This document shows positions 4,296 to 39,406 of a stretch of DNA of 41,906 nucleotides, in pieces (positions within the stretch are counted from its first letter, which is position 1; each line of letters starts with the position of its first letter). The notes below the pieces were generated by a model that was not told where the DNA came from, ran no database searches, and was given only the letters and a program-made list of their open reading frames with translations. Source of the stretch: Myxococcales bacterium UBA5297. Its GTDB lineage: Bacteria > Myxococcota > Myxococcia > Myxococcales > UBA5297. Where the stretch lies: assembly GCA_002408385.1 (NCBI GenBank), contig DHSB01000116.1:6244-48149 (forward strand). Reading direction: 5' to 3'. Both the position numbers and the translations under genes were made by a program.

Positions 4296-7204
<2,909 letters not shown>

Positions 7205-7996
7205 ATGAAGCGCCCGTTGTTCGCATTGGTTGCCTGCTCGCTCGCCGCCTGCGTCCACAGCCGCCCAGCGCCGAGCGTCGTCAAGGCCCCACCGCGGCCC
7301 GAGGGGTGCGCCGCGGCCTCGCTCGTCGTCCTGCGCAACGTGGCGACGGCCTCCGCGGTCGATCCGGTAGAGACCGAGCGGGCGATCCTCCTCAGCGAGT
7401 CGTTCCGCGCCTCGGTCGCGGGCACCTCGCCGGCGGTCGATCTGCGCGCGGCGATGAACGTCCAGCGGGTCGGCCGCAGCGCGGTGCTCGTGGTGCGCAC
7501 CACCGCGGCCCAGCGCGCCGAAGCGCTCGCGGTGTGCAACGCGGTGCTCGACGCGGCCTTCCTCTTCGGCAACGAGGGGCTCGACTTCCTAGAGGAGCAG
7601 GCACGCGCCTTGGAGGCGGAGCTGGGCCCCAAGGAAAAGGAGCTGCGCGAATTCAACGAGAAGAACGACCTGCACGTGCTGCCACTCGCCGAGCGCCTGG
7701 CCATCGTGCAGGCGAGGATCCGCGACCTCTCCCTCGCGCAGCGGCCCGCCCGCGGCGCCCAGGCCCCCAGCCCCGCCGAGAGCGCCGCGCTCCAGGCGGC
7801 TCTCCACGAGTCGCGCGGCGAGGCGCTGCGCCTCAACGCCGTCAAGCTCGAGGCGCTGCGGCTCGAGCGCGAGCTTGAGACGGTGCGGATGCGCTATAGC
7901 CTGGTGCGCAGGAAGCTTGCCGAGGAGGCGCTGGCCAAGGTCCTCGAGCAGAACCTCCGGGTGCTCGACCGCTGCACGCCCTGCGCTGATCGGTAG
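7205..7996 (+). CDS. Lipoprotein with Wzz/GumC-like periplasmic domain
   Basis: 263-residue predicted lipoprotein. The start at 7205 follows AAGGAG; a short signal peptide ends in a lipobox LAAC (Cys16). After a Pro-rich linker the chain reads like the periplasmic part of polysaccharide chain-length (Wzz/GumC) proteins: a segment of the type VETERAILLSESFRASVAG, a strand with SAVLVVRTTAA, then FLEEQARALEAEL (about 130-142) opening a long charged coiled coil with the E..L.EFNEKNDLH pattern, ending near residue 255. Those proteins normally have two membrane helices; here there are none, so the chain would be held only by its lipid anchor. The C-terminus carries CTPC. Role in polysaccharide export is an inference; no polysaccharide gene is adjacent. 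It sits on the plus strand between recF and gyrB, both on the minus strand. Confidence 0.75.
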   Translation: MKRPLFALVACSLAACVHSRPAPSVVKAPPRPEGCAAASLVVLRNVATASAVDPVETERAILLSESFRASVAGTSPAVDLRAAMNVQRVGRSAVLVVRTTAAQRAEALAVCNAVLDAAFLFGNEGLDFLEEQARALEAELGPKEKELREFNEKNDLHVLPLAERLAIVQARIRDLSLAQRPARGAQAPSPAESAALQAALHESRGEALRLNAVKLEALRLERELETVRMRYSLVRRKLAEEALAKVLEQNLRVLDRCTPCADR

Positions 7997-8020
7997 ACCA
8001 CAGGTCGGTAGGGGCGCACA

Positions 8021-8100
8021 GCAATGCGCCCGTCGAGGAATCGGGCAGGTGCGCCGGCGATCCCGGCGGCCAGCCCTTCGGAATCGTGCTGCCGCGCAGA
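8021..8100 (+). repeat. Dispersed repeat R4, copy a
   Basis: The string GCAATGCGCCCGTCGAGGAA, extended by TCGGGCAG, recurs exactly in inverted orientation near 22472-22499, and similarity continues through GGAATCGTGCTGCCGCG. It lies just after the lipoprotein stop. In both copies a short frame starting MRPSRNRA can be read, but the peptides diverge at once and are not thought to be genes. Confidence 0.75.
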
Positions 8101-8162
8101 GGGGCCGACGGAGAGATGGCGCGGTCGCATGCCAGGCGATTCGGAGGCCGCGGAAATCCAGG

Positions 8163-9275
8163 CTACCCGGGGAGCGGGCCGAACACTCCGCGCTCGACGC
8201 CCAGGAGCCGGGCGTCTTCTCCGGCCGCCTGCCGGACGAGCCGCTCGTCGGTCGTCGTCAGGAACACCTGCAGGTTCGAGGCTCGCAAATACTCCATCAG
8301 ATGAGCGTTGCGCGCGGGGTCGAGCTCACTCGAGACGTCGTCGAGCAATAGCAACGGCGGCCGGCCCAGGCTCGCCCGCAGGTTCTCGATCTCGGCGATC
8401 TTGAGGGCGAGGACGACGGCGCGCTGCTGGCCCTGTGAGGCGAAGGAGCGCGCCGGCCTGCCGCCGAGCAACAGCTCGAGGTCGTCGGCATGCGGCCCGA
8501 CGGAGGTGAAGCCGCGCTCTTGATCGCGCGGGGCCCGACGGCGCAAGGCTGCCAGCAGCTCGCCGGCGATCTGCGGCTCGCCCCCGAGCGCCTCGGGGCC
8601 GACGCCCGAAGGCGCATAGCGCGTTTGCAGGCCGCCGTCGCCCACGGCGATGGCCTCGAAGCTCCCTTCGGCCCGCGGGCCCATCTCGGCGACCAAGGCG
8701 AGCCGCCGGGCCACGACGCGCGCCCCGGCGCGCGCGAGCGCCTCGTCGAAGGCCTCGAACAGCGCGGGGGCCGCCCGCTCCTTGAGCAGGCGGTTGCGCT
8801 GCTTGAGCGCGCGCTGATAGTCGCGGCAGGCCTCGAGGTGACCCGGGAAGCGATTGAAGACCGCACGGTCGAGCAGGCGCCGCCGACCCTCGGGGCCTCC
8901 TTTGGCTACCGAGAGGTCGTCCGGCGTGAAGGCGACCACCGAGACGCCGCCGAAGTAGTCCGTCAGGCTCTTGGCGGGCTTGCCATCGACGAACGCCTCG
9001 CGCCCGCCGGTGTGGACTTCGACCGAGATCTCCCGCTCGGCCCCGCCCAGCGCGAAGCGCCCCCTCACCCGGCCGCGCCTCTCGCCAAAGCGCACCAGCT
9101 CGGCGTAGCGCGCAGCGCGCAGCGGCCTCAACGTGGCGAGCAGATAGAGCGCCTCGAGCAGGTTGGTCTTGCCCTGGCCATTCGGGCCGACGACCACGGT
9201 CGCCCGCTCGGCGGGCAGCAGGTCGGCCGTCTCGATGTTGCGAAAATTGCGGACTTCCAGCGCGAGCAGGCGCAT
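8163..9275 (-). CDS. recF: DNA replication and repair protein RecF
   Basis: 370-residue SMC-like ATPase that helps load RecA on gapped DNA with RecO and RecR. The N-terminus (LALEVRNFRNIE) is typical; Walker A is GPNGQGKT (30-37), the signature is SFASQGQQRAVVLAL and Walker B is LLLLDDVSSELD. Length is normal for the family (about 360-380). The ATG at 9275 is preceded by GAGGAG four bases upstream, although the frame stays open to 9395. It lies on the same strand as gyrB, the classic partner. Its upstream region, including the ribosome site and start codon, is part of dispersed repeat R1. Confidence 0.95.
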   Translation of the reverse strand: MRLLALEVRNFRNIETADLLPAERATVVVGPNGQGKTNLLEALYLLATLRPLRAARYAELVRFGERRGRVRGRFALGGAEREISVEVHTGGREAFVDGKPAKSLTDYFGGVSVVAFTPDDLSVAKGGPEGRRRLLDRAVFNRFPGHLEACRDYQRALKQRNRLLKERAAPALFEAFDEALARAGARVVARRLALVAEMGPRAEGSFEAIAVGDGGLQTRYAPSGVGPEALGGEPQIAGELLAALRRRAPRDQERGFTSVGPHADDLELLLGGRPARSFASQGQQRAVVLALKIAEIENLRASLGRPPLLLLDDVSSELDPARNAHLMEYLRASNLQVFLTTTDERLVRQAAGEDARLLGVERGVFGPLPG

Positions 9276-9516
9276 GCGGCTCCTCTTGACAGGGCGCCTG
9301 TCAAAACGCAAGGCCGAGCTGAATGCCTCCCGCCGCCGCCCGGCCCCGCCCGGTGCCATTTGCCGAGCCCGTGCCGAATTTGAGCCAAGGTACATCCGCT
9401 CGCTCTCGCGCGAGCAAAGGGACCTGTCCCCAGGAGGCCAGGTTGGCGAAGCGCGAACCGCCCGAGAGGCCGGCCATCCCGTTGGACACCGCGTGGCCTC
9501 CGCCTGCCAAGGGAGG
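9271..9516 (+). repeat. Dispersed repeat R1, copy b
   Basis: Direct copy of 404-650. It begins at the recF start codon region and runs into the 5' end of the nucleotidyltransferase gene, where it supplies AGGAGG and a TTG that could serve as ribosome site and start codon (9432-9445). It therefore overlaps both divergent gene starts. Confidence 0.8.
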
Positions 9517-10360
9517 TGCGCGGCCCGCCCTCACCAGAAAAGGCCGCCCCAAGACCGTCCGGCTACCCTGGGCCCGCGCTGGCCGCTCGCAAGCCAAGAG
9601 CGCTGCCGACAGCGACTCGGCCTCGCAGGTCGCCGCCCGGCGCGCCGCGCTCGTCGCGCTCAACGAGGACCGCGTCCCGTTCGTGGTCGCCGGCGCCTAC
9701 GCGCTGCGCGAGTACACCGGCATCCGGCGCGACACCAAGGATCTCGACATCTTCTGCCAGCGCAAGGACGCCGGCCGTGCGCTGACGAGCCTTTCGCGCG
9801 TCGGGTTCCGGGTGGAGATGACCGACTCGCTCTGGCTCGCCAAGGGCTTTGCCCAGGACGGCGAGTTCGTCGACGTCATCTTCTCCTCGGGCAACGGCGT
9901 GGCCGAGGTGGACAAGCTGTGGCTGCGGCGCGCCCGGAAGGCACGGGTGCTCGGGGTCGACTCGCTCATCGCTCCTCCCGAGGAGGTGATCTGGTCCAAG
10001 AGCTATGTCCAGGAGCGCGAACGCTACGACGGCGCGGACATCCAGCACCTGCTGCTCTGGTGTGCCGAGGGCCTTGACTGGAAGCACCTGCTCGACCGGA
10101 TGCGCCCTCACCCCGAGGTCCTGCTCGCGCACCTGCTCCTGTTCCGGTTCAGCTACCCGGGCGATCGCGACAAGGTCCCGGGCTGGGTCCTCGACGAGCT
10201 GCTCGCGCTCTCGCGGCGCCCGGCCCTCGCGTCGGAGAAGCGGCTGTGCCGCGGGACGCTGCTGTCGGGGCAGCAGTACCAAGTCGACCTCGCCGAGGGA
10301 TACCGCGACGCCCGCCCGCTCGAGGTGCCCGCGTGGCGCGAACACCGCGGGCCGCCGTGA
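9443..10360 (+). CDS. Nucleotidyltransferase-fold protein
   Basis: About 305 residues. The recognisable core begins near 9660 with VPFVVAGAYALREYTGIRRDTKDLDIF, the pattern of stand-alone nucleotidyltransferase-fold proteins (glycine-rich helix cap, then the DxD metal pair in KDLDI). Later blocks (EEVIWSKSYVQERERYDGADIQHLL) fit the same group, in which a Lys and a D..D.. stretch follow the core. Substrate unknown: it could modify a nucleic acid, protein or small molecule. The start is uncertain: TTG at 9443 has AGGAGG five bases before it, but both lie in repeat R1 and the first 50 residues look non-conserved; no ATG exists between there and the core. Its stop overlaps a possible GTG start of the phosphoesterase gene (GTGA), so the two are probably co-translated. 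Confidence 0.7.
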   Translation: MAKREPPERPAIPLDTAWPPPAKGGARPALTRKGRPKTVRLPWARAGRSQAKSAADSDSASQVAARRAALVALNEDRVPFVVAGAYALREYTGIRRDTKDLDIFCQRKDAGRALTSLSRVGFRVEMTDSLWLAKGFAQDGEFVDVIFSSGNGVAEVDKLWLRRARKARVLGVDSLIAPPEEVIWSKSYVQERERYDGADIQHLLLWCAEGLDWKHLLDRMRPHPEVLLAHLLLFRFSYPGDRDKVPGWVLDELLALSRRPALASEKRLCRGTLLSGQQYQVDLAEGYRDARPLEVPAWREHRGPP

Positions 10361-10461
10361 AGAGGCCCAAGGCCTTCGTCGCCACCAATGCGCCGCTGGC
10401 CCTGGCGCCGCAGCGCGCGACCAGGCCGGTGGCCCCCGTCTCGCGAAGGGAGTCGAAGCCG

Positions 10462-11244
10462 ATGCGATTGGACGAGGGCCAGGGTTTCGGCACCGAGGAA
10501 CGCGAGGAGTCGGAGCGGCCTCCCTCCCGGCCGATTCGCGTCGCCGCCTCGGGCGACCTGCACGCGCGACTCGATCGCCCCAACCGGCTGCAGCGCATCT
10601 TCCGCGAGGTGAACGACCAGGCGGACATCCTGCTGCTCGCCGGTGATCTGACCGACCACGGCGACCCCGACGAGGCCGAGCAGCTCGCCGAGGAGATGTC
10701 GGCCGTGCGCGTGCCTATCGTCGCGGTGCTCGGCAATCACGACTACGAGATGGGCAAGGCGGACGAAGTGGTGCGCATCCTGTCGCGCGGCGGCATTCGC
10801 ATCCTCGACGGCGGCTTCTTCATTTTTGAGAAGCGCCTGGCCATCGCCGGTACCAAGGGCTTTGCCGGAGGCTTCGGGCGCGCGACCCTCGAGCCCTGGG
10901 GCGAGGAGCCGATCAAGCGGTTCGTGTTCGAGGCGGTCAACGAGTCTCTCAAGCTCGAGAGCGCGCTCGCGCGCATCAAGGATTACCCCAAGCGCATCGC
11001 GCTGATGCACTACGCCCCGGTCCACGGCACCGTCGAGGGCGAGAACCCGGAGCTCATCCCGTTCCTTGGCTGCTCACGCCTTGCCGAGCCCATCGACAAC
11101 TTCGGGGCCGATTTCGCAGTCCACGGCCACGCGCACAAGGGGCGCACGCAGGCGAACACGCCGGGCGGGATCCCGGTCTACAACGTGGCCATGAAGCTGC
11201 TGAACCATGCGACCGGGCGGCGCTTCGTCGTCGTCGGGGTTTGA
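10462..11244 (+). CDS. Calcineurin-like metallophosphoesterase
   Basis: 260-residue two-metal phosphoesterase. All family motifs are visible: GDLHA (D-x-H), GDLTDHG, GNHDYE, HYAPVHG and GHAHKG. The fold hydrolyses phosphomonoesters, phosphodiesters or cyclic nucleotides; the substrate cannot be told here. The start at ATG 10462 has AAGGGAG about nine bases upstream; a GTG at 10357 overlapping the stop of the preceding gene (GTGA) is an alternative that would add 35 residues. Immediate coupling to a nucleotidyltransferase-fold gene suggests that the pair may add and remove the same group, which is only an inference. The stop codon is the first codon of repeat R5. Confidence 0.9.
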   Translation: MRLDEGQGFGTEEREESERPPSRPIRVAASGDLHARLDRPNRLQRIFREVNDQADILLLAGDLTDHGDPDEAEQLAEEMSAVRVPIVAVLGNHDYEMGKADEVVRILSRGGIRILDGGFFIFEKRLAIAGTKGFAGGFGRATLEPWGEEPIKRFVFEAVNESLKLESALARIKDYPKRIALMHYAPVHGTVEGENPELIPFLGCSRLAEPIDNFGADFAVHGHAHKGRTQANTPGGIPVYNVAMKLLNHATGRRFVVVGV

Positions 11245-29772: not shown

Positions 29773-31296
29773 TCAGCGCTCCGCTCCGGACTCGCCCTCG
29801 AGCCGCTCCATCCCGAACCGCTCGAGGATCAGATTGGCCGAGATTCGACCGCTCTCGAAGATGGTCGGCAGCCCACTGCCGGGGTGCGTGCCGCCGCCGA
29901 CCAGATAGAGCCCGTCGATGTCGTCGAAGCGGTTGTGGGGCCGGAAGTAGAGCATCTGGCCGATGTTGTGCGCGAGGTTGAAGGTCGCGCCGCGGTAGAC
30001 GTGCATGTCGCGCTCCCAGTCGAGCGGCGTGAGCACCTTCGACTCGACGATGTGGCTCCGCAGACCGGCCAGGCCTCCGCGCGACTCCAGCAGTCCGAGG
30101 ACCTTCTTGGTGAACGGCGCCTTCTGCGCGTCCCAGTCGATTCCGCTGCGGTTGTTGGGGACCGGGACGAGCACGTAGAGCGTGCTCATCCCCGGCGGCG
30201 CCAGGCCGGGATCCGTCACGCTCGCGTTCTGCATGTAGAACGAGGGGTCGTCCGACAGCACCAGCTTGTCGGCTATCTCCTCGACGTTCCGCTTGTAGTC
30301 CTCGGCGAAGACGATGTTGTGGTGCGGCAGGTCCGCATAGAGCTTGTCGAGCCCGAGGTAGAGCATGAAGGTCGAGCACGAGAGCTTCTTGCGCCCGAGC
30401 CTCCGCGGGGTCCAGCGCCTCAATGCGCTCTCCGGGATCAGGTGCGTCAGCCCGTACCCGAAGTCGCTGCCGAGGACCACCGCGTCGGCCTTCTCGCGCG
30501 ACCCGTCCTCCAGCTCCACGCCGGTCGTGCGCCCGTTTTCGACCAGCAGCCGGCGCACCGGGCTCGACAGGTGAATGCGGCCGCCGTGCTCCTCGATCAC
30601 CTTCGCCATCGCCTGGCTGATCCGGTGGAGCCCGCCCATCGGATGGTGGATGCCCGCGGCGTGCTCGATGTAGGGCACCAGGCTGAAGGTGCCCGGACAG
30701 CTCCACGGCGACATCCCCAGGTACTTCGCCTGGAAGGTGAAGCAGATGCGGAGCTGCTCGTTCTCGAAATAGTTGCCGAGGTGGGTGAAGAGGCTCTTGT
30801 GGGCGTCGAGGTACGGGAGCGCGCGCACGAAGCGACGCGTAGCGAACGCGCGCAGGGACGAATACGGCACCTTCAGGCACGGCGTGACGTGGTCGAACTT
30901 GATGCGCTCGTAGTCGAGCCACCGCTGGTAGGCGGGACCGGTTCCGGGCACCAGCGCCTCGAGCTGGCGCTTCATCGCGTCGTGGTCGGAGGTGACCCGA
31001 AGCTCCCTTCCGTCGGCGAAGACGAGCCGGTAGAGCGGGTCGAGCGAACGGATGTCCAGATAGTCCTCGACCCGGCGGCCGGAGAGACCGAAGACCTCCT
31101 CCAGGTAGAAGCGCATCATCAGGAAGGTCGGCCCAAGCTCGAAGGTGAAGTCGCCGAGCCTCAACGGCGCGTTGCGGCCTCCGACCACCGGCTTGGCCTC
31201 GAAGACGTCCACTCGCAGGCCACGGCTCGCGAGCAGCATGCTCGCCGTCAAGGCTCCGGGCCCCGCACCGATGACGACGACGCGCTTCTCACTCAT
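29773..31296 (-). CDS. CrtN/CrtI-type carotenoid desaturase
   Basis: 507-residue FAD enzyme of the phytoene desaturase family, introducing conjugated double bonds into a C30 or C40 isoprenoid chain at the membrane. The N-terminal dinucleotide fold is VVVIGAGPGALTAS (6-19) with EAKPVVGGR; the C-terminal FAD motif is YLVGGGTHPGSGLPTIFESG. The middle block (HHNIVFAEDYKRNVEEI ... DPSFYMQNASVTDP) is like CrtN-type desaturases. Full length. Last enzyme of a minus-strand gene group, 172 bases after the CrtP-like gene. The substrate cannot be fixed, since no phytoene or dehydrosqualene synthase gene is in the window. Confidence 0.93.
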   Translation of the reverse strand: MSEKRVVVIGAGPGALTASMLLASRGLRVDVFEAKPVVGGRNAPLRLGDFTFELGPTFLMMRFYLEEVFGLSGRRVEDYLDIRSLDPLYRLVFADGRELRVTSDHDAMKRQLEALVPGTGPAYQRWLDYERIKFDHVTPCLKVPYSSLRAFATRRFVRALPYLDAHKSLFTHLGNYFENEQLRICFTFQAKYLGMSPWSCPGTFSLVPYIEHAAGIHHPMGGLHRISQAMAKVIEEHGGRIHLSSPVRRLLVENGRTTGVELEDGSREKADAVVLGSDFGYGLTHLIPESALRRWTPRRLGRKKLSCSTFMLYLGLDKLYADLPHHNIVFAEDYKRNVEEIADKLVLSDDPSFYMQNASVTDPGLAPPGMSTLYVLVPVPNNRSGIDWDAQKAPFTKKVLGLLESRGGLAGLRSHIVESKVLTPLDWERDMHVYRGATFNLAHNIGQMLYFRPHNRFDDIDGLYLVGGGTHPGSGLPTIFESGRISANLILERFGMERLEGESGAER

Positions 31297-31468
31297 GGCT
31301 CACCCGTCCCTTCGATTTGGCGCCGACGGTCCCGAAGCCCGGGAATCGCAGGAGGCGGCCCGGATCGCGCGCTGACGGCGACAGCTCGAGCGCCCCCAGC
31401 CACCGATCGCCGAGTCGGCACCCGCAGGCGCCCGGTCGTGGCGATTGCGCGCGCCCAGCCGACGGCGA

Positions 31469-32992
31469 TCATCCGCGCCTCCCGGAGCGCCCGAGGTCCT
31501 CGGCGACCATCCGCGCGACGTGCTCTCCGCCGAGCACGGCCATGGGCGTGCCTCCGCCCGGGTTCACGCTCCCGCCCACGAAGTAGAGCCCGCGGTACCG
31601 ACTGCTGCGCTTCTGCGCCTTGAACCCGAGGTTCTTCCTGCGGTCGGAGACGACCCCGTAGATCGCGCCGCGGTTCGAGAAGAAGAGCTGCTCGAGGTCG
31701 TGCGGCGTCAGCACCTCCTCGACCACGATGTGGCGGCGCAGATCGGTCAGCCCCATGCGCTCGAGCTTGTCGAAGAGCCGCTCCTTGAATTCGAGATACC
31801 TCTCCCGCGGGAGCGGCGGCTCCCGAAGGTGAGGCACGTGGGGCAGCACCTTGATGATGTGGTGGCCTTCGGGCGCAACCGAGGGATCGGTGATCGTCGG
31901 GCAGACGAGATAGATCGACGGATCCTCAGGCAGCACCTTCCGCCGATGGACCGCGTCGAAGTAGGCCCGCGGGTCCTCCGAGGTGAAGACGTTGTGGTGG
32001 CGAAGCTGCTCGTAGCGCCGGTTCACGCCGAGGTGAACGACCACGCCGGAGGCCGCCGGCTCGAAGCGCCACCGGTAGCCTCGCAACCACGCGCCCCTCT
32101 CGCCCAGAAGTCGCTCGTAGGCCGGGATGACCTCCATGTTGCAGACGACCGCGTCGGCCCGCTCCTCGCCGCTGTCGGCGAGGACGATGCCCTCGGCCCG
32201 GCGGTCGCGGGTGAGGATGCGCGTCACCTGCGCCGAGAGGTGGACCTTCACCCCGAGCTCGGCGAGCAGCTTCCCGAAGGCCTCGGCGAGCCGGTAGAAG
32301 CCACCGCGCACGTACCAGAGCCCGTAGCGAAGCTGCGAATACGGCATCAGGTTGAGGATCGCGGGCGCGTCGTAGGGCGAGGAGCCGACGTATTTGACGA
32401 AGAAATCGAGCATCGAGCGCAGGTGCGGCTCTTCGACCCGACGGGCGACGCCCTCGTGGACGCTGAAGGGCAAGCCTGCCCCGCGGACGATCTCGCGCCA
32501 GCGGTGCCCGCGAACGACCTGGCCGAGCGTATCGGCGCCGCTCTCGAAAAAGGCCTTGCCGGCGAACCCGTAGAGGCGCCGCGAATACTCGACGAAGTCC
32601 CAATAGCCGCGCGCCCGCGGGCCGAGCTTCTCGAGCTCGGTCTCCATCCGCGCGAGGTCCGGAAAGAGATCGACCACCGCGCCGTCGGGGAAGAAGGAGC
32701 GCCACTGCGGCTGGATCTCGACGAGCTCGACGTAGTCGTCGAGCCGCCTGCCCGCGCGCTCGAAGACCCGCTGGAAGAGGTGCGGCAGGATCAGGATCGA
32801 AGGCCCGAAGTCGAAGCGGAACCCGTCGCGCTCGATGAGGTTGAGCTTGCCGCCGATGCGCTCGTTCTTCTCGAAGACCTCGACCTCGAAGCCGGCTGCA
32901 GCGAGCCCGGCTGCCGCAGAGAGGCCTCCGAGCCCTGCTCCGACGACCAGCACTCTCTCTCGTCGAGCTCCCACCCTGACCGCCCTCCTCAC
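31469..32992 (-). CDS. CrtP/CrtNb-like carotenoid oxidase (CrtI family)
   Basis: 507-residue FAD protein homologous to the desaturase but distinct. The FAD fold is VLVVGAGLGGLSAA (14-27; GxGxxG at 18-23), and the C-terminal motif is YFVGGSVNPGGGTPMAVLGG. The segment HHNVFTSEDPRAYFD ... DPSIYLVCPTITDP resembles CrtNb/CrtP, which oxidise a terminal methyl group of a C30 carotene to an aldehyde. The next gene upstream encodes an aldehyde dehydrogenase, which supports that role. The GTG start at 32992 overlaps the stop of that gene (GTGA); a GTG at 32974 with AGGAGG before it is an alternative. A second desaturase is the competing reading. Confidence 0.88.
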   Translation of the reverse strand: MRRAVRVGARRERVLVVGAGLGGLSAAAGLAAAGFEVEVFEKNERIGGKLNLIERDGFRFDFGPSILILPHLFQRVFERAGRRLDDYVELVEIQPQWRSFFPDGAVVDLFPDLARMETELEKLGPRARGYWDFVEYSRRLYGFAGKAFFESGADTLGQVVRGHRWREIVRGAGLPFSVHEGVARRVEEPHLRSMLDFFVKYVGSSPYDAPAILNLMPYSQLRYGLWYVRGGFYRLAEAFGKLLAELGVKVHLSAQVTRILTRDRRAEGIVLADSGEERADAVVCNMEVIPAYERLLGERGAWLRGYRWRFEPAASGVVVHLGVNRRYEQLRHHNVFTSEDPRAYFDAVHRRKVLPEDPSIYLVCPTITDPSVAPEGHHIIKVLPHVPHLREPPLPRERYLEFKERLFDKLERMGLTDLRRHIVVEEVLTPHDLEQLFFSNRGAIYGVVSDRRKNLGFKAQKRSSRYRGLYFVGGSVNPGGGTPMAVLGGEHVARMVAEDLGRSGRRG

Positions 32993-34506
32993 CGCTCCCG
33001 TTCGCGCCGCTCGCGCATCCAGAGGGCGGCCGCGCGCACCGCCGCCTCGAGCGACCGGGTTCGGCCCCGCAAACCACGGCCGTGAACCGCCAGAATCCAG
33101 GCCCGCAGCCCCTCATAGCTCGCGCGGTCGAACGGCAGCCAGCCCGGCTCACGGCCTCGCCGCCCCGGACCTATCTGGATCGCGCGCTGGCGACAGAAGG
33201 CCCGCAGCCCCTCGGGGCCGTGGTAGCGGCAAAAGCCGCTCTGCTTCTCGCCGCCGAAGGGCATCGCCGGGTTGGCGACGTTGCGCAGCACCTCGTTGAT
33301 CGCGCAGCTTCCGGTCACCAAACGCCGCGCGACCCGCAGCCCGCGCTGCTCGTCGGCCGTCCAGACGCTCGCGTTGAGGCCGTAGCGCGAATCGTTGGCC
33401 AGCGCGACCGCCTCGTCCTCTCCGGAGAAGCGCATCACCGGCAGCACCGGACCGAAGGTCTCCTCCTGCATCACCTTCATCGAGTGGTCGACTCCGGTGA
33501 GCACGACCGGGTGGATGAGCTCGCCCTCGACGACGAGCGGGTTCTCGAGGCGCGCGCCCTTGCCGAGCGCGTCGGCGATCTGTTCCTCGACGACCTCGCG
33601 CTGAGCCGGTCGGATGAGCGGGCCGTAGTCGCCGGCGCCGCGCGTCCCAGGGCGCAGCCGGAGCACCTCGTCGAGGATTCGCTCGAGCAGCTCGTCGTAG
33701 ACCGGGGTCTCCACGTAGAGCCGCTCGATGGCCACGCAGCTCTGACCCGCGTTGGCGAAGGCGCCGTAGACCGCCGCGCTCGCGGCGCGCGCGAGGTCGG
33801 CGTCGGCGAAGACGATCATCGGGTCCTTGCCGCCCAGCTCGAGCTCGACCGGAGTGATCGCCTCCGCGGCGGCCTGCATGACCTTGCGGCCCGTGTCGGT
33901 GCTGCCCGTGAAGAAGACCTTGTCTGGTCGGGCCTCGACGAGGGCCGCACCTGCGCTGCGCTCGCTCGGCACGAGCTGGAGGACGCCGTCGGGGAAGCCG
34001 GCCTCGCGGAAGAGCCGCGCGATCAGGCTTCCCACTGTCGGCGTGAGCTCGGAGGGCTTGAGGAGGACCACGTTGCCCGCCACCAGCGCGGGGATGGCCG
34101 GCAGCAGGCTGAGCTGCAGCGGGTGGTTCCAGGGCGAGATGATCGCGACGACGCCGAACGGCTGGTACTCGACGAGGAAGCGGCTCCCACGCGCGAGCGC
34201 CCAGGTCGGTCGGCGCTCGGCTTTGAGAATTCTGGTGGCGTGGCGCTCGTAGTAGCGGGCGGCCTCGAGCGTCACCAGCACGTCGCTCGACAACGCCTCG
34301 AGGGCCGGCTTGTTCGTCGCCTCGATCAGCGTGTCGAGCACCTCGTCGAGGTCGTGGACGATGACCGAGCGGAGCGCTCGCATCAGATCCAGGCGATGGC
34401 GCAGCGGTGTCGCCGACCAGCCGGGGAACGCGCGACGCGCCCGGGCCATCGCCGCGCGCACCGGCGCGTCGCTCGGGTCCGGACCGCGGGTTTGCGCGTT
34501 CTCCAT
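32989..34506 (-). CDS. Aldehyde dehydrogenase, probably acting on a carotenoid aldehyde
   Basis: 505-residue NAD(P)-dependent aldehyde dehydrogenase. All catalytic residues are seen: Asn127 (SPWNHP), Glu223 (LELGGKDP) and the nucleophile Cys257 (GQSCVA). AGGAGG lies four bases before ATG 34506. The C-terminal 60 residues (RGREPGWLPFDRASYEGLRAW onwards) are basic and partly hydrophobic, suggesting membrane association, as in aldehyde dehydrogenases that finish C30 carotenoid acids. Sandwiched, with overlapping or near-overlapping ends, between a carotenoid oxidase and an isoprenoid-type methyltransferase, so conversion of a carotenal to a carotenoic acid is the likely job. This is inference from context. 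Confidence 0.9.
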   Translation of the reverse strand: MENAQTRGPDPSDAPVRAAMARARRAFPGWSATPLRHRLDLMRALRSVIVHDLDEVLDTLIEATNKPALEALSSDVLVTLEAARYYERHATRILKAERRPTWALARGSRFLVEYQPFGVVAIISPWNHPLQLSLLPAIPALVAGNVVLLKPSELTPTVGSLIARLFREAGFPDGVLQLVPSERSAGAALVEARPDKVFFTGSTDTGRKVMQAAAEAITPVELELGGKDPMIVFADADLARAASAAVYGAFANAGQSCVAIERLYVETPVYDELLERILDEVLRLRPGTRGAGDYGPLIRPAQREVVEEQIADALGKGARLENPLVVEGELIHPVVLTGVDHSMKVMQEETFGPVLPVMRFSGEDEAVALANDSRYGLNASVWTADEQRGLRVARRLVTGSCAINEVLRNVANPAMPFGGEKQSGFCRYHGPEGLRAFCRQRAIQIGPGRRGREPGWLPFDRASYEGLRAWILAVHGRGLRGRTRSLEAAVRAAALWMRERRERER

Positions 34507-34519
34507 CGAGCCTCCTGCC

Positions 34520-35275
34520 TCACCCCTCGGGCGCATCCACGAAGGCTTGCGCCGACGCCCAAGGGGTCATCGTGCCGGGCGTGGCCCTCGCGTCGAGGCT
34601 CTGCGCTTTGTCGCCGCGCCTCGCGACGAAGGCCGTGCGCCTGAGCCTGGGAATCCAGGCTGGCACGGCGCGGCGATACGCGGTCCAGGCCTCGCCGAAT
34701 TGGTCCGCGAGCACCTGCTCTTCGCGCCACGACCGGAGCAGCATCGACGGAACCGAGCCGAGCAAGAAGACAGCACTCCAGTTGCGGAAGACGAGAACGT
34801 CGCCAACCGCCAGCAGGAACCAGCCGAGGTAGATCGGGTGGCGCACTCGCGCGAAGGGCCCGCAGGTGACCAGCCGGTGGTCGGCATAGACGGTCGCGCC
34901 CAGGCTGCTCGACAGGTCCCACATCCGCCCGAGCCTTACCCGGCCCCAGAAGGTCAGCGCCGTGCCCGGCAGGAGCAGCGCGAGCCCGCCGAGCGTCGCG
35001 GCGCGTTCGGCACGCGAAGAGAGCCTGAGCGGGAGCGGCCTCCAGAGACGGAGGCCACCGATCACGAGGCTCGAAACCACCGCTCCATAGAGCGGCAGGA
35101 GCGCCGGACGGGAGAACGCCGTGCCGAGGCCGCTGTGGCGGGCGCGCGGGCGGCGGAGGCTCGAGAGCACGCCCGCTGCGATCATCAGGAAGACCGAGAC
35201 GGTCGCGGCTCCGGCCACTCCCCGGGCGAGCGTCCCGAGCTTCGTACGCCGGCTCTTCAGGCGCCTGGTTCCCAT
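34520..35275 (-). CDS. Isoprenylcysteine carboxyl methyltransferase-like membrane protein
   Basis: 251-residue integral membrane protein of the ICMT/PEMT methyltransferase superfamily. About five hydrophobic helices (24-40, 58-75, 94-110, 150-162, 165-180) surround the S-adenosylmethionine motif RHPIYLGW (145-152) and the downstream EEQVLADQFGEAWTAYRR (185-202). Eukaryotic ICMT methylates the carboxylate of prenylated cysteine. Bacterial relatives have mixed or unknown substrates. Being first in a transcript with an aldehyde dehydrogenase and carotenoid oxidase, it could methylate a carotenoid carboxylate. The stop is 13 bases before the aldehyde dehydrogenase start. The ATG at 35275 lacks an evident ribosome site. 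The last 40 residues are not part of the core fold. Confidence 0.85.
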   Translation of the reverse strand: MGTRRLKSRRTKLGTLARGVAGAATVSVFLMIAAGVLSSLRRPRARHSGLGTAFSRPALLPLYGAVVSSLVIGGLRLWRPLPLRLSSRAERAATLGGLALLLPGTALTFWGRVRLGRMWDLSSSLGATVYADHRLVTCGPFARVRHPIYLGWFLLAVGDVLVFRNWSAVFLLGSVPSMLLRSWREEQVLADQFGEAWTAYRRAVPAWIPRLRRTAFVARRGDKAQSLDARATPGTMTPWASAQAFVDAPEG

Positions 35276-36063: not shown

Positions 36064-39000
36064 TCACGGCGCCCGCGCGGTATACCGCAAGACGACCTTC
36101 TGTCCCGGCCGAGGCGTCTTCGCGACAGGAAAGTGCACGGCATTGCGTTCCGGCAGGTACTCCCAGACCAGCTCACCCTGAGCGTCTGTGCTGGGAACTG
36201 CGACGCCATCGACCGTGACTTCGATAGGGCCGGCCGCCAGGTCGGGCGGTGTGGGCAGCGGGAAATGCGTGCGCAAACCGCTCGCCACCTCTGCGATCCG
36301 CTCGACGAGGTAGTCGAATTCGGACGTGCGGGCAGGGCAGGCCTCGCCGACGAATCCTCCAGGCGTCACAGCGGTGAAGATTTGCGCGGGAACCGGATTG
36401 TACATGTATCTGAACCAAGCCGAAGGTGGCCGACAGTGCGGGTCCTGCCCTGCGTCGTCACGAATAGGCGTCAGAAACGCGCTCGACATCTTAGGCTCAT
36501 CGCCGTCCAAGGCCGCGGTCATGGCTTTCGCGAATTGGCCGATTTCCCGATAGGGGTATTGAAACGGAGGGCTCTCCTGACAAGAGGTAATGTCCGAGTC
36601 TAGATGCTGGGCATAATGGATAAACGCGAAGCGAGCTCCAGACCGCAAGAAACCAGCGTTGGCGCCGGTTGAGACAGGTGGGGTCAGGGCGAACCAGGCG
36701 ACCCCAAGGTACGCGTAAGCCAGCATCAATATCGGCTGTGGCTCGCCGATTTTCTGCTGCAGCTTTTCTGAAAGGCCAGCGGTGGTCGGGCGAAGGATGC
36801 GATCGGGATCCTGAGGCCCGTGTGACAAAGTGCCCCATTCTGAGGCTGAGGAATCGAGCAGGCAAAAGCGCAAGACGCCGATCTGGAAGTCGTTGCCTGA
36901 CACGGATAGATGATTCAACAGGGCGGGCACGCGCGCCGCAATTTGCTCTTCGGGCCAATTGAGGGGTTCGCCGTCAGCGCCGCTCTCCAGGTAGAGTAGG
37001 ATGTCAACAGAGTCGCCTCCCTCCTGTTGAAATGAGGTGACGTTGATCCGATTGGGCTCAGCGCGCCCGCGGAGTGGAAGCACATGGCGCATGCGCCCAC
37101 TTCGATGCTCCATTTCGAAGACCAGCGAGCCGAGGTATTCGCCAGGGGCTTGCGGAGCGAAGCGGACGGAGACCGGGAAGAGCTCTGGAGCAGGCGGGCG
37201 TGCCTTTGGGTAGTAATTCTCTAGCTCGATCCCATCGGCCGGGATCTCGGTCAGAAGCGTCGCCTGGAACTGAGGCGCCCCGCTGCCAATGGTGACTCCA
37301 TGCAGCTTCACGGTGGGCGCGCAGAGGTGGAGGATCTGAATCACCCTTTCTGCCGATTGCTCCCCGGGCCGCAGTGCCCCGAAGTCAAGCTCGGTCGGCT
37401 GCAGTGCGAGACAGGCGGGGCCTGTTCCTCCTTGGAGGACCACCGCTGGTTCCGGTGCACTCGGGCTGGACACGCGGAGCGCGACGAGCCCGGGGATGTT
37501 GGAGTAGCTCTGGTCGCCGATGCTCCTCGGCTTCAGGGTGACCGGAATGGCCACCTTCTGCCCTGGCGCTACTTCGAGCGCTTGCACTGCCTTGGGGAGC
37601 GAGTAATCCAGCGCGCCCGAGGTAATGCCCTCGACCGTGAGCAGGCAGAGAGCGTCCGGCGATTGGCCGAGGTTCTCGAACGAAAAGCCCATCGTCTTCG
37701 GCGCGGTCGCCTGGACTACGCCAAAGTCCAGGACAGAGGGGCTTACCCGGTACTCGCAGGCAGGCATCTGCTTTGCCACGGCGCTGACGGTGATGGCCGC
37801 TCTCGGTCGCTCGGGGTCGTTCGAAAGAATCTCGACCCGCGCGTGCTTGATGCCTGCAGATTTGGGCGTCAGGCGAATCGGTAAGGTCAGGTTGTTGTTG
37901 AAAGGGGCTGGGGCGATCGATGGCGAGGCGGCGATAACGAGCTCGATCTCGTCGGGGGAGGTCTCCGGTGTCAGGGGTTCGACGTGAATGAACGGTGCGC
38001 CATGGTCGCCGTTCGCCTGGGCTGTACCCAGGTGCAGCGCCGCCGCCTCCGCATGCTCAGGCGCGGCCTCGCCGCTGTTTGTCACCAACAGCTCGCGCGT
38101 CTCCGACAGCGCCGCGCCGGCGACGAAAGCAACCGTGCCGAAATCGATAATCTCGGGGAAAACCTCTATCCGCGGCCCGCCGCCGATCTCGGCCAGCGGC
38201 ACTCGGATCTCCTCCTGGCCCTGGAGATCAGTCGCCAATACGAGAGCAGCGCTCTTTTCACCCAGGCTCGTCGGCGTGCAAGTGACCGTGCGACTCAAGC
38301 TCTCTCCCGGCTCGAGCACGAATGCGGCCAGCGAGCCCCAGGAGCTGGCAGGCAGGGCGAAGTCCTCCCCAACCGTGTCCTGGCCCGGAACCACGCGCCA
38401 CGAGGAGAGCTCGACCGGGCGCTGGGCACTGCTCGTGAAGCGAACCTCCCTAGACACCGAGCGGCCGGGGAGCACGAAACCGCACTCGACTTCGGGAGGA
38501 TCCCACTCCAGCAGCTTCGAGCGACCCTCGCCGATCAAGAGAACGCGTGACGGCTGACAGCCCGGAGCAACCGTGATGTCGATACTCGCCTGGAAGGGCC
38601 TTGCTTCGGATGGCTGAAAGCCGAGCAGCAGCTCTCGCGACCCACCTGCCGGAACGCTCAACGCCGCTCCGGGCCCTCCGTTCTTGTAAGAGAACGTTGC
38701 CCCGTCGCCGTCCTGGGGCGAGGGCGCGCCGAGTTGGGCATCGGTCGCCGTTGACGTGGGGTTGGACAACACGAGCGAGCGCGTCTCTTCCTGGCCGATG
38801 AGCACCAAACCGAAATCGATGCTTTCGGGGAGCTTGCAAGGCGACGGCAGCACCTGAGCTTCAAGCCGCAGCAGGACGGACTCCCGGCCCGGTGCGGTGT
38901 CCGAGGCGCTGATGGATACTTCCGCTGCTAATTGGTGGGGCGCTGTGTCGGCAGATGCGAAGAGTAATGCCTGCAACTCGATGGTCTCGTTGGGCCGCAA

Positions 39001-39330
39001 TTCGCGCCCAACGGGGATGTCGAGTGCAAATGAGTGATTGGCGTCCGGGCGGGCGGCGAAAAGCACCGAATCACCCGAACGATGCGTCGGCGCGAGAATA
39101 GTAACCGACTGCCGCCCGGCGTTGCGAAGCCAGACCGATTGATTCGCTGTCACGCCACCCAGCGCTTCGTCGAATCGCAGTGTCGCAGTCTCGCCGAACT
39201 CTGGCGGGCCGGCGGAAATCTGCAGGTCGCCGTAGACGCCAGTCAGCGACGGCGAGTCACAGCCAGAGAGCATCCCCACAACGACCGCGACCACGGTTGA
39301 TGACGAAAGACGCCTACCGAGCGCAAACAT
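36064..39330 (-). CDS. Large ASH-domain lipoprotein with decayed von Willebrand A region
   Basis: 1088-residue predicted lipoprotein (start ATG 39330; lipobox LSGC, Cys24). From about residue 50 to 770 there are at least five ASH-type (ASPM/SPD-2/hydin-like) beta sandwiches, each opening with a sequence like PESIDFGLVLIGQ, PEIIDFGTVAF, PSVLDFGVVQ or PTELDFGALRPGE. From about 790 a region aligns with von Willebrand A domains of myxobacterial lipoproteins (DSVDILLYLESG, EEQIAARVPALLNHL, NDFQIGVLRF), but the DxSxS metal motif is lost (YLESGAD) and the usual SDExDxS is YAQHLDSD. The C-terminus (IEVTVDGVAVP ... LVWEYLPERNAVHF) matches the tail of that family. Codon use is less GC-extreme than in neighbouring core genes. 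Probably a surface or periplasmic structural protein. Confidence 0.85.
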   Translation of the reverse strand: MFALGRRLSSSTVVAVVVGMLSGCDSPSLTGVYGDLQISAGPPEFGETATLRFDEALGGVTANQSVWLRNAGRQSVTILAPTHRSGDSVLFAARPDANHSFALDIPVGRELRPNETIELQALLFASADTAPHQLAAEVSISASDTAPGRESVLLRLEAQVLPSPCKLPESIDFGLVLIGQEETRSLVLSNPTSTATDAQLGAPSPQDGDGATFSYKNGGPGAALSVPAGGSRELLLGFQPSEARPFQASIDITVAPGCQPSRVLLIGEGRSKLLEWDPPEVECGFVLPGRSVSREVRFTSSAQRPVELSSWRVVPGQDTVGEDFALPASSWGSLAAFVLEPGESLSRTVTCTPTSLGEKSAALVLATDLQGQEEIRVPLAEIGGGPRIEVFPEIIDFGTVAFVAGAALSETRELLVTNSGEAAPEHAEAAALHLGTAQANGDHGAPFIHVEPLTPETSPDEIELVIAASPSIAPAPFNNNLTLPIRLTPKSAGIKHARVEILSNDPERPRAAITVSAVAKQMPACEYRVSPSVLDFGVVQATAPKTMGFSFENLGQSPDALCLLTVEGITSGALDYSLPKAVQALEVAPGQKVAIPVTLKPRSIGDQSYSNIPGLVALRVSSPSAPEPAVVLQGGTGPACLALQPTELDFGALRPGEQSAERVIQILHLCAPTVKLHGVTIGSGAPQFQATLLTEIPADGIELENYYPKARPPAPELFPVSVRFAPQAPGEYLGSLVFEMEHRSGRMRHVLPLRGRAEPNRINVTSFQQEGGDSVDILLYLESGADGEPLNWPEEQIAARVPALLNHLSVSGNDFQIGVLRFCLLDSSASEWGTLSHGPQDPDRILRPTTAGLSEKLQQKIGEPQPILMLAYAYLGVAWFALTPPVSTGANAGFLRSGARFAFIHYAQHLDSDITSCQESPPFQYPYREIGQFAKAMTAALDGDEPKMSSAFLTPIRDDAGQDPHCRPPSAWFRYMYNPVPAQIFTAVTPGGFVGEACPARTSEFDYLVERIAEVASGLRTHFPLPTPPDLAAGPIEVTVDGVAVPSTDAQGELVWEYLPERNAVHFPVAKTPRPGQKVVLRYTARAP

Positions 39331-39357
39331 GGCGTTACCCCCATCGAACGGGCGAGC

Positions 39358-39378
39358 GCGGGCCGTGAAACGGCCCGC
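39358..39378 (-). terminator. Strong hairpin after the frameshifted secreted-protein gene
   Basis: GCGGGCCGT-GAA-ACGGCCCGC is a perfect nine-base stem with a three-base loop, 28 bases after the stop of the upstream minus-strand gene and 27 before the ASH lipoprotein start. No T tract follows, so terminator activity is plausible but not certain. Confidence 0.5.
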
Positions 39379-39406
39379 ACTCATGCATATCCGGCCGGAG
39401 CAGTGG

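Follow-up and report, generated by a model that had tools for sequence, protein, structure and literature searches.

What would a myxobacterium make with a set of carotenoid-oxidising genes headed by a gene for a membrane methyltransferase? The question is raised by a stretch of 41,906 nucleotides from Myxococcales bacterium UBA5297 (assembly GCA_002408385.1, contig DHSB01000116.1, positions 6,244 to 48,149; hereafter the window), in which four minus-strand genes encode a methyltransferase of the isoprenylcysteine carboxyl methyltransferase (ICMT) type, an aldehyde dehydrogenase (ALDH), a CrtP-like oxidase and a CrtN-like desaturase. Our analysis gives good support to a C30 carotenoic-acid operon of an ordinary kind, to which an ICMT cap would be a plausible, evenly balanced addition. 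The complete reading, in which the four genes act as one operon that converts squalene to an oxidised C30 carotenoid, capped as a methyl ester by the ICMT-type enzyme, is in our judgement an even prospect. The elements of the group are the following:

34520..35275, minus strand: first gene, ICMT/PEMT-type integral-membrane methyltransferase of 251 amino acids (PF04140, 41.0 bits; PEMT, 29.8 bits)
34511..34516, minus strand: AGGAGG ribosome-binding sequence between the methyltransferase stop and the ALDH start, read directly
32989..34506, minus strand (longest open reading frame from 34536): ALDH (PF00171, Aldedh, 438 bits)
31469..32992, minus strand: CrtP/CrtNb-type terminal-methyl oxidase (TIGR02734, 376 bits; CrtP clade)
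29773..31296, minus strand: CrtN-type C30 desaturase of the squalene-route lineage (TIGR02734, 474 bits; CrtN clade)

The curated Pfam/NCBIfam cut-offs are 238 bits for TIGR02734, 24 for PF04140 and 25 for PEMT, and all four reading frames have the strong codon-position GC bias of real genes (GC at third positions, GC3, of 0.88-0.93). The tight packing and gene order described in the first-pass annotation, which was made from the sequence alone, were thus borne out by the reading frames and domain models. The longest ALDH reading frame, from 34536, overlaps the methyltransferase gene by 17 bases; the junction, however, reads TGA-GGC-AGGAGG-CTCG-ATG, with AGGAGG 4 bases before an in-frame ATG at 34506, so the true start is probably this ATG, which leaves a gap of 13 bases after the methyltransferase stop. 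The ALDH and CrtP genes share 4 bases, or have 14 bases between them if CrtP starts at a GTG behind a further AGGAGG, and 172 bases separate CrtP from CrtN. This layout suggests that the methyltransferase is probably co-transcribed with the downstream ALDH and crt genes.

The C30 character of the pathway is indicated by the relationships of its two CrtI-superfamily proteins. In tblastn searches against plasmids, the best match of the CrtP-like protein was the CrtP of Staphylococcus equorum (44.7% identity), which sits in a crtO-crtP-crtQ-crtM-crtN cluster, and that of the CrtN-like protein was an Azospirillum CrtN (46%), from a cluster with the order ALDH-crtN-crtP-acyltransferase-glycosyltransferase. 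The window CrtN is 56% identical to the CrtN of a C30 cluster found in our survey of genomes (L156, see below), and just 30% identical to the staphylococcal one. In a maximum-likelihood tree of 65 CrtN, CrtP and CrtI rows, it falls in a 19-row clade (support 100/99), and a 28-row clade that holds the Azospirillum and Microvirga CrtN proteins takes it in as well (100/100); the window CrtP belongs to a 17-row clade that includes the S. equorum CrtP (100/100). Staphylococcal CrtN lies outside the window CrtN clade, on a long branch whose placement is unsure. Five CrtI rows from the host's own order, included in the tree, fall outside both clades, and among the CrtP matches listed for a sample of 195 genomes of the host phylum none outside the host itself exceeded 37% identity. 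On the strength of these clades and of the low identities within the phylum, the CrtN/CrtP/ALDH trio is assigned by sequence to the C30 carotenoic-acid pathway, very probably correctly, and probably does not descend from the CrtI of the host's order; it may instead have been acquired horizontally. The first-pass annotation had anticipated this pathway, and the tree and the gene neighbourhoods agree with it. In the five genomes compared from this order CrtI belongs to a different clade, and finding a C30 pathway in one of its members bears on the horizontal spread of the squalene route. That route to C30 carotenoids is reportedly the subject of a PNAS paper of 2022. The host genome also encodes a third, divergent CrtI/CrtISO-like protein (contig C148, L257:379-2310), which scores 104 bits with TIGR02734, below the cut-off.

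The precursor has to be sought outside the window. In the host genome (7.65 Mb in 255 contigs, 95.6% complete) we saw a single squalene/phytoene-synthase gene (PF00494), on another contig (C219); its best model is squalene synthase at 80.8 bits, below the cut-off of 286.75, and it stays under every curated cut-off listed. The same genome encodes a squalene-hopene cyclase (SHC, 762 bits) and, at a distance of 1.5 kb, HpnH (434 bits), both above their cut-offs. Since SHC and HpnH are present, squalene must be made, by the sole head-to-head synthase seen, and the single synthase gene together with the hopanoid genes makes squalene the most likely precursor of the C30 pathway. The same evidence bears on a C40, lycopene-type pathway in which CrtN would be a phytoene desaturase: both CrtN and CrtP are members of the CrtI superfamily, scoring 311 and 314 bits with the CrtID model (cut-off 640), and the low synthase scores would fit such a pathway, but the tree places both proteins in C30 clades and a genome with SHC and HpnH needs squalene from the one PF00494 gene seen. 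We therefore rejected the C40 pathway, which we regard as very improbable.

The known system closest to the window in these respects is the squalene-route C30 pathway (HpnCDE/CrtN/CrtP/AldH) of M. extorquens AM1/PA1 and Planctopirus limnophila. The window shares its CrtN clade with Azospirillum and Microvirga, whose clusters, like many from metagenome-assembled genomes, include an ALDH, and the synthase is shared with hopanoids. It differs in that the host shows a single squalene-synthase-type gene (one PF00494 match), and in that the window has no relative of the glycosyltransferases or acyltransferases and its gene group begins with an ICMT-type methyltransferase. The staphyloxanthin cluster crtOPQMN with aldH resembles the window in the CrtP clade and the presence of ALDH, but the window lacks relatives of CrtM, CrtQ and CrtO, and its CrtN is distant from the staphylococcal one.

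Matches to the ALDH include proteins from Polyangiaceae and Deltaproteobacteria, in keeping with a myxobacterial host. The window enzyme is 42-47% identical to the ALDHs of six C30 clusters of the survey (L156, L177, L179, L180, L181 and L234) and 28-36% identical to the matches of the remaining clusters, plasmids included. Its affinity is thus to a single sub-lineage of C30 clusters, and most clusters have ALDHs that are not close to it.

We propose the following pathway, with its steps in their probable order. Squalene from the squalene-synthase-type enzyme encoded outside the window would be desaturated by CrtN to a 4,4'-diapo-carotene; CrtP would convert a terminal methyl to an aldehyde, which ALDH would oxidise to the carboxylic acid, and the ICMT-type enzyme would transfer a methyl group from S-adenosylmethionine (SAM) to the carboxylate, giving a methyl ester. 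This last step would take the place of the CrtQ glycosyltransferase and CrtO acyltransferase of staphyloxanthin-type clusters. A tblastn search of the whole window (E<=1e-3) with S. equorum CrtQ, CrtO and CrtM, Microvirga HpnCD, the host synthase, and the Azospirillum and Microvirga glycosyltransferases and acyltransferases found no relative of any of them, and for these queries the earlier statement that no such gene lies nearby holds. It is the operon logic and the absence of CrtQ- and CrtO-like genes from the window that suggest methyl-ester capping. Alternatively, CrtQ/CrtO-like enzymes from genes in another part of the genome might complete the acid as a glycosyl or acyl ester, in which case the methyltransferase would act on the opposite end of a dioic acid or have no part in the pathway. 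Among 22 clusters with a CrtP of the window or Staphylococcus type in the fetched stretch, 16 have a CrtQ-like glycosyltransferase and 14 a CrtO-like acyltransferase, and the synthase itself is already unlinked to the window genes; on the other side, the window, which is what the search covered, holds no CrtQ/CrtO-like gene, and we consider such a product quite unlikely. The six CrtP clusters without a CrtQ match (at least one of which, L156, is cut by a contig end) also have no ICMT-like gene, so the absence of CrtQ does not in itself predict one.

The case for the methyl-ester step, which taken by itself we would place at even, turns on the methyltransferase. Ste14 methylates a lipid-proximal carboxylate. 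The window protein resembles ICMT/Ste14 (4a2n, 5v7p) in its fold, with PF04140 above the curated cut-off as expected of a family and fold member, and in its SAM-site motifs RHPxY and EE. It differs from them in scoring 61.2 bits with the NCBIfam equivalog model for Ste14 (NF040696, protein-S-isoprenylcysteine O-methyltransferase; cut-off 160), and in that the closest of its placed relatives are membrane methyltransferases without such linkage, most of them from Chloroflexi metagenome-assembled genomes. A search of genome contigs with a profile of the protein (A1) matched 91 relatives, of which 80 were kept and their flanks fetched up to 8 kb. Most are 26-48% identical to the window protein, one reaching 70% over 27 residues, and in the best-matched block (L028-L064) 36 of 37 rows are of the Chloroflexi group, the exception being from Acidimicrobiaceae (L049). 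Closer orthologs exist (P0001-P0003: one at 98%, P0002 at 87% and P0003 at about 63-67%), but their contigs, none longer than 4.1 kb, offer no readable context. The window protein groups with P0002 and P0003 in a clade apart from the Chloroflexi group (moderate support, 92/99), and the gene context of this clade is known from the window alone. When neighbours of these orthologs were sought by way of ALDH matches, an ALDH cluster at >=90% identity (P0030) proved to occur on 5 contigs and methyltransferase P0002 on 4, which is suggestive at most. In the 195 host-phylum genomes, matches at E<=1e-10 were found in 15, all of them weak beyond the gene itself, the best (9.6e-15) being a paralog in the host genome. 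We considered this paralog (contig C138, 36-39% identical) as a second carotenoid enzyme and set it aside, since inspection of its 3.5 kb locus by eye revealed no carotenoid gene. Searches of plasmids with the window methyltransferase returned 9 records.

Several of our results weigh against a methyl-ester cap, or against parts of the pathway that leads up to it. The low score with the Ste14 equivalog model is one. Furthermore, no CrtN or CrtP match (E<=1e-5) was found in the fetched flanks of any of the 80 relatives, of which 38 loci are at least 16 kb long, 7 are shorter than 6 kb and many have flanks cut short; an ALDH match occurs in one (L067). Sixty of the relatives' genomes were searched for CrtN (the other 20 loci fall outside this set, two of them sharing a genome with a searched locus): 30 have a CrtI-family gene at E<=1e-30 and the other 30 have none, and a single one (G232) has a C30-type CrtN (54%), on a different contig from its methyltransferase. 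Conversely, 40 genomes with a C30-type CrtN gave 90 matches to the methyltransferase profile, the best at 95.5 bits, with no ortholog among the 20 top-scoring places and those close to the clusters, which were compared (identity <=44% over about 105 residues). As the relatives are not found near CrtN or CrtP and no ortholog was seen in the C30 genomes, the methyltransferase family at large is not a carotenoid family. The first-pass annotation had tied the enzyme to carotenoid genes and had named its occurrence equally often away from them as grounds for giving up the idea; at the level of the family, the 0/80 count shows just that, for relatives that are mostly 26-48% identical to the window protein. 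Two further points concern the upstream pathway: the ALDHs of the Staphylococcus, Azospirillum and Microvirga clusters share no more than 31-36% identity with that of the window, and with the host genome 95.6% complete a second synthase could be missing.

These distributions favour the main competing explanation, that the operon makes a C30 acid but that the methyltransferase acts elsewhere, on a carotenoid hydroxyl, a quinone or phenolic lipid or another membrane lipid, as a positional neighbour or in a general membrane role. ICMT-fold relatives also methylate other lipids or hydroxyls, as SrsB does with alkylresorcinols. SrsB, which is of the ICMT type, belongs to an alkylresorcinol operon in the part of that report available (PMC6669644). 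The lack of CrtN or CrtP near any of the 80 relatives, of an ortholog in the 40 C30 genomes and of any CrtI-family match (E<=1e-30) in half of the 60 genomes searched fits this explanation. It accounts less well for the position of the gene, 13 bases from the ALDH gene or overlapping it by 17, directly upstream of the gene for the acid-forming enzyme and in one direction with all the others, and for the similar adjacency of ICMT-like genes in two other loci. We regard it as a serious possibility, though one that falls somewhat short of even.

Those two loci come from a survey of C30 clusters. With a threshold of E<=1e-115, C30-type CrtN was found in 24/294, 15/297 and 30/387 genomes of samples centred on Mariniblastus (Planctomycetota), Acidobacteria and Verrucomicrobia, many adjoining ALDH and CrtP; a CrtP search (E<=1e-105) of a Bacillota-centred sample gave 1 in 398. 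We assembled 78 C30 loci (24 from the Planctomycetota, 15 from the Acidobacteriota, 31 from the Verrucomicrobiota and 2 from the Bacillota sample, 1 from Armatimonadetes and 5 from plasmids), of which 69 span at least 14 kb and four (L156, L160, L239 and L249) less than 8 kb; left out were two 36-38% CrtI types kept for contrast, which have no ICMT-like gene (L153, L154), and the duplicates of L156 and L177 (L155, L176). The order ALDH-CrtP-CrtN recurs in L156 (CrtN 56%, ALDH 47%), where the contig ends inside ALDH, at the point where a methyltransferase would come; that genome's one ICMT-like gene found, which is not an ortholog, is carried by a different contig.

ICMT-like genes nevertheless occur in the fetched stretches of four of the 78 loci, and in two of these they immediately precede a crt gene of the same orientation:

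L168 (Planctomycetota-sample genome G356), same strand: ICMT-like gene 7336-8142, CrtN 8287-9897, gap of 144 bases
L222 (Bacillota-sample genome G1108), same strand: ICMT-like gene 8798-9349, CrtP-like gene 9371-10879, gap of 21 bases

In L168, CrtN is followed downstream by ALDH (a partial match), CrtP, an acyltransferase and a glycosyltransferase. The CrtP-like protein of L222 is 62% identical to a Cytobacillus one, and the surroundings (recX, mutY and oligopeptide-transport genes) read as those of a Bacillota-type genome; plasmid searches with its methyltransferase returned 3 records. The other two loci, L162 and L163 (genomes G364 and G395), have ICMT-like genes that are sisters of each other and precede CrtN by 3.2-3.4 kb; in L163 an ABC gene on the opposite strand intervenes. 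We considered them as operon partners, and owing to the distance and the ABC gene counted them as near, not adjacent. L163 also has an alpha/beta-hydrolase-type gene (565 amino acids) between ALDH and CrtP. The 90 ICMT-like matches (E<=1e-6) in about 204 Mb of the 40 C30 genomes predict 0.29 in the 672 kb fetched, against 3 seen (L162, L163 and L168; Poisson P ~0.003), and 0.034 in the roughly 2 kb of directly flanking space, against 1 seen (L168; P ~0.03), in a test that was devised after looking, that counts 2 independent events given the sister genes, and whose scope is these 40 genomes, so that the Verrucomicrobiota loci (0/31 with an ICMT-like gene) and L222 lie outside it. The other side of the survey is that 74 of the 78 fetched stretches have no ICMT-like gene, and that the L168 and L222 proteins are remote from the window's (38% over 63 and 36% over 55 residues), so that by sequence they would at best be separate recruitments. 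It is the adjacency of two independent ICMT-like genes to C30 genes that keeps the capping idea alive. It allows the tentative suggestion, which we hold with less than even confidence, that evolution has more than once turned ICMT-fold methyltransferases to capping the carboxyl group of bacterial C30 carotenoids (in the lineage of the window, in L168 and in L222), convergently with the plant SABATH route to bixin.

A methyl ester would not be foreign to this chemistry. Methyl 5-glucosyl-5,6-dihydro-4,4'-diapolycopenoate of Planococcus and Halobacillus has the methyl carotenoate end group predicted for the window product, but carries glucose, and the window has no glycosyltransferase relative. 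BonBMT, the norbixin methyltransferase of Bixa orellana, methylates the carboxyl of a carotenoid acid that an aldehyde dehydrogenase has produced, as is proposed here; it belongs to the plant SABATH family and not to the membrane ICMT fold. Its assignment is itself questioned in the accessible part of one report (PMC4625570). C30 carotenoic acid methyl esters are known natural products isolated from Bacillota, according to the available portions of two papers on Planococcus (PMC8502411, PMC8933910), in which the word methyltransferase does not occur. For M. extorquens PA1, an 'unknown methyltransferase' is invoked in the part available of PMC10448405. Two statements in these sources tell against an enzyme like ours: in the accessible text of Takemura et al., further reactions are needed to reach the methyl ester and an acyltransferase (orf6) is the speculated esterifier in Planococcus (PMC8502411), and the terminal acid is described as prone to esterification (PMC10448405), from which it follows that some reported carotenoid esters might be chemical in origin. 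In the literature as far as it was accessible, we found no ICMT-type enzyme assigned to carotenoid esters and no bacterial methyltransferase named for the ester, and a search combining isoprenylcysteine carboxyl methyltransferase, carotenoid and crtN found nothing. With no methyltransferase found named, in the sources as available, for the C30 methyl carotenoates isolated from Bacillota, the window set and the L168 and L222 pairs provide concrete candidates, the ICMT-like gene of L222 being an independent one for the methyl-ester enzyme of Bacillota C30 carotenoids.

Methyltransferases of another kind were met beside C30 genes. A class I SAM methyltransferase lies between crtN and crtP on a Microvirga ossetica plasmid (L142:7737-8819) and is a different possible carotenoid methyltransferase. 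Another, just downstream of CrtP in L228, has an ArsR-type helix-turn-helix and adjoins an S-adenosylhomocysteine hydrolase gene, and was discarded as probably belonging to methionine metabolism. In an Armatimonadetes metagenome-assembled genome (L152:3226-4594), a C30-type CrtN (54%) is split over two reading frames and adjoins a UbiB/ABC1-looking gene, on a contig with no CrtP or ALDH match. Within the window, upstream of the operon, positions 36064-39384 encode a large choice-of-anchor-D/ASH-domain protein (1106 amino acids) whose GC3 of 0.74 is below that of the operon genes, and gyrB with a RecF/SMC-type gene on the minus strand at 4296-9395 suggests a replication origin near the window.

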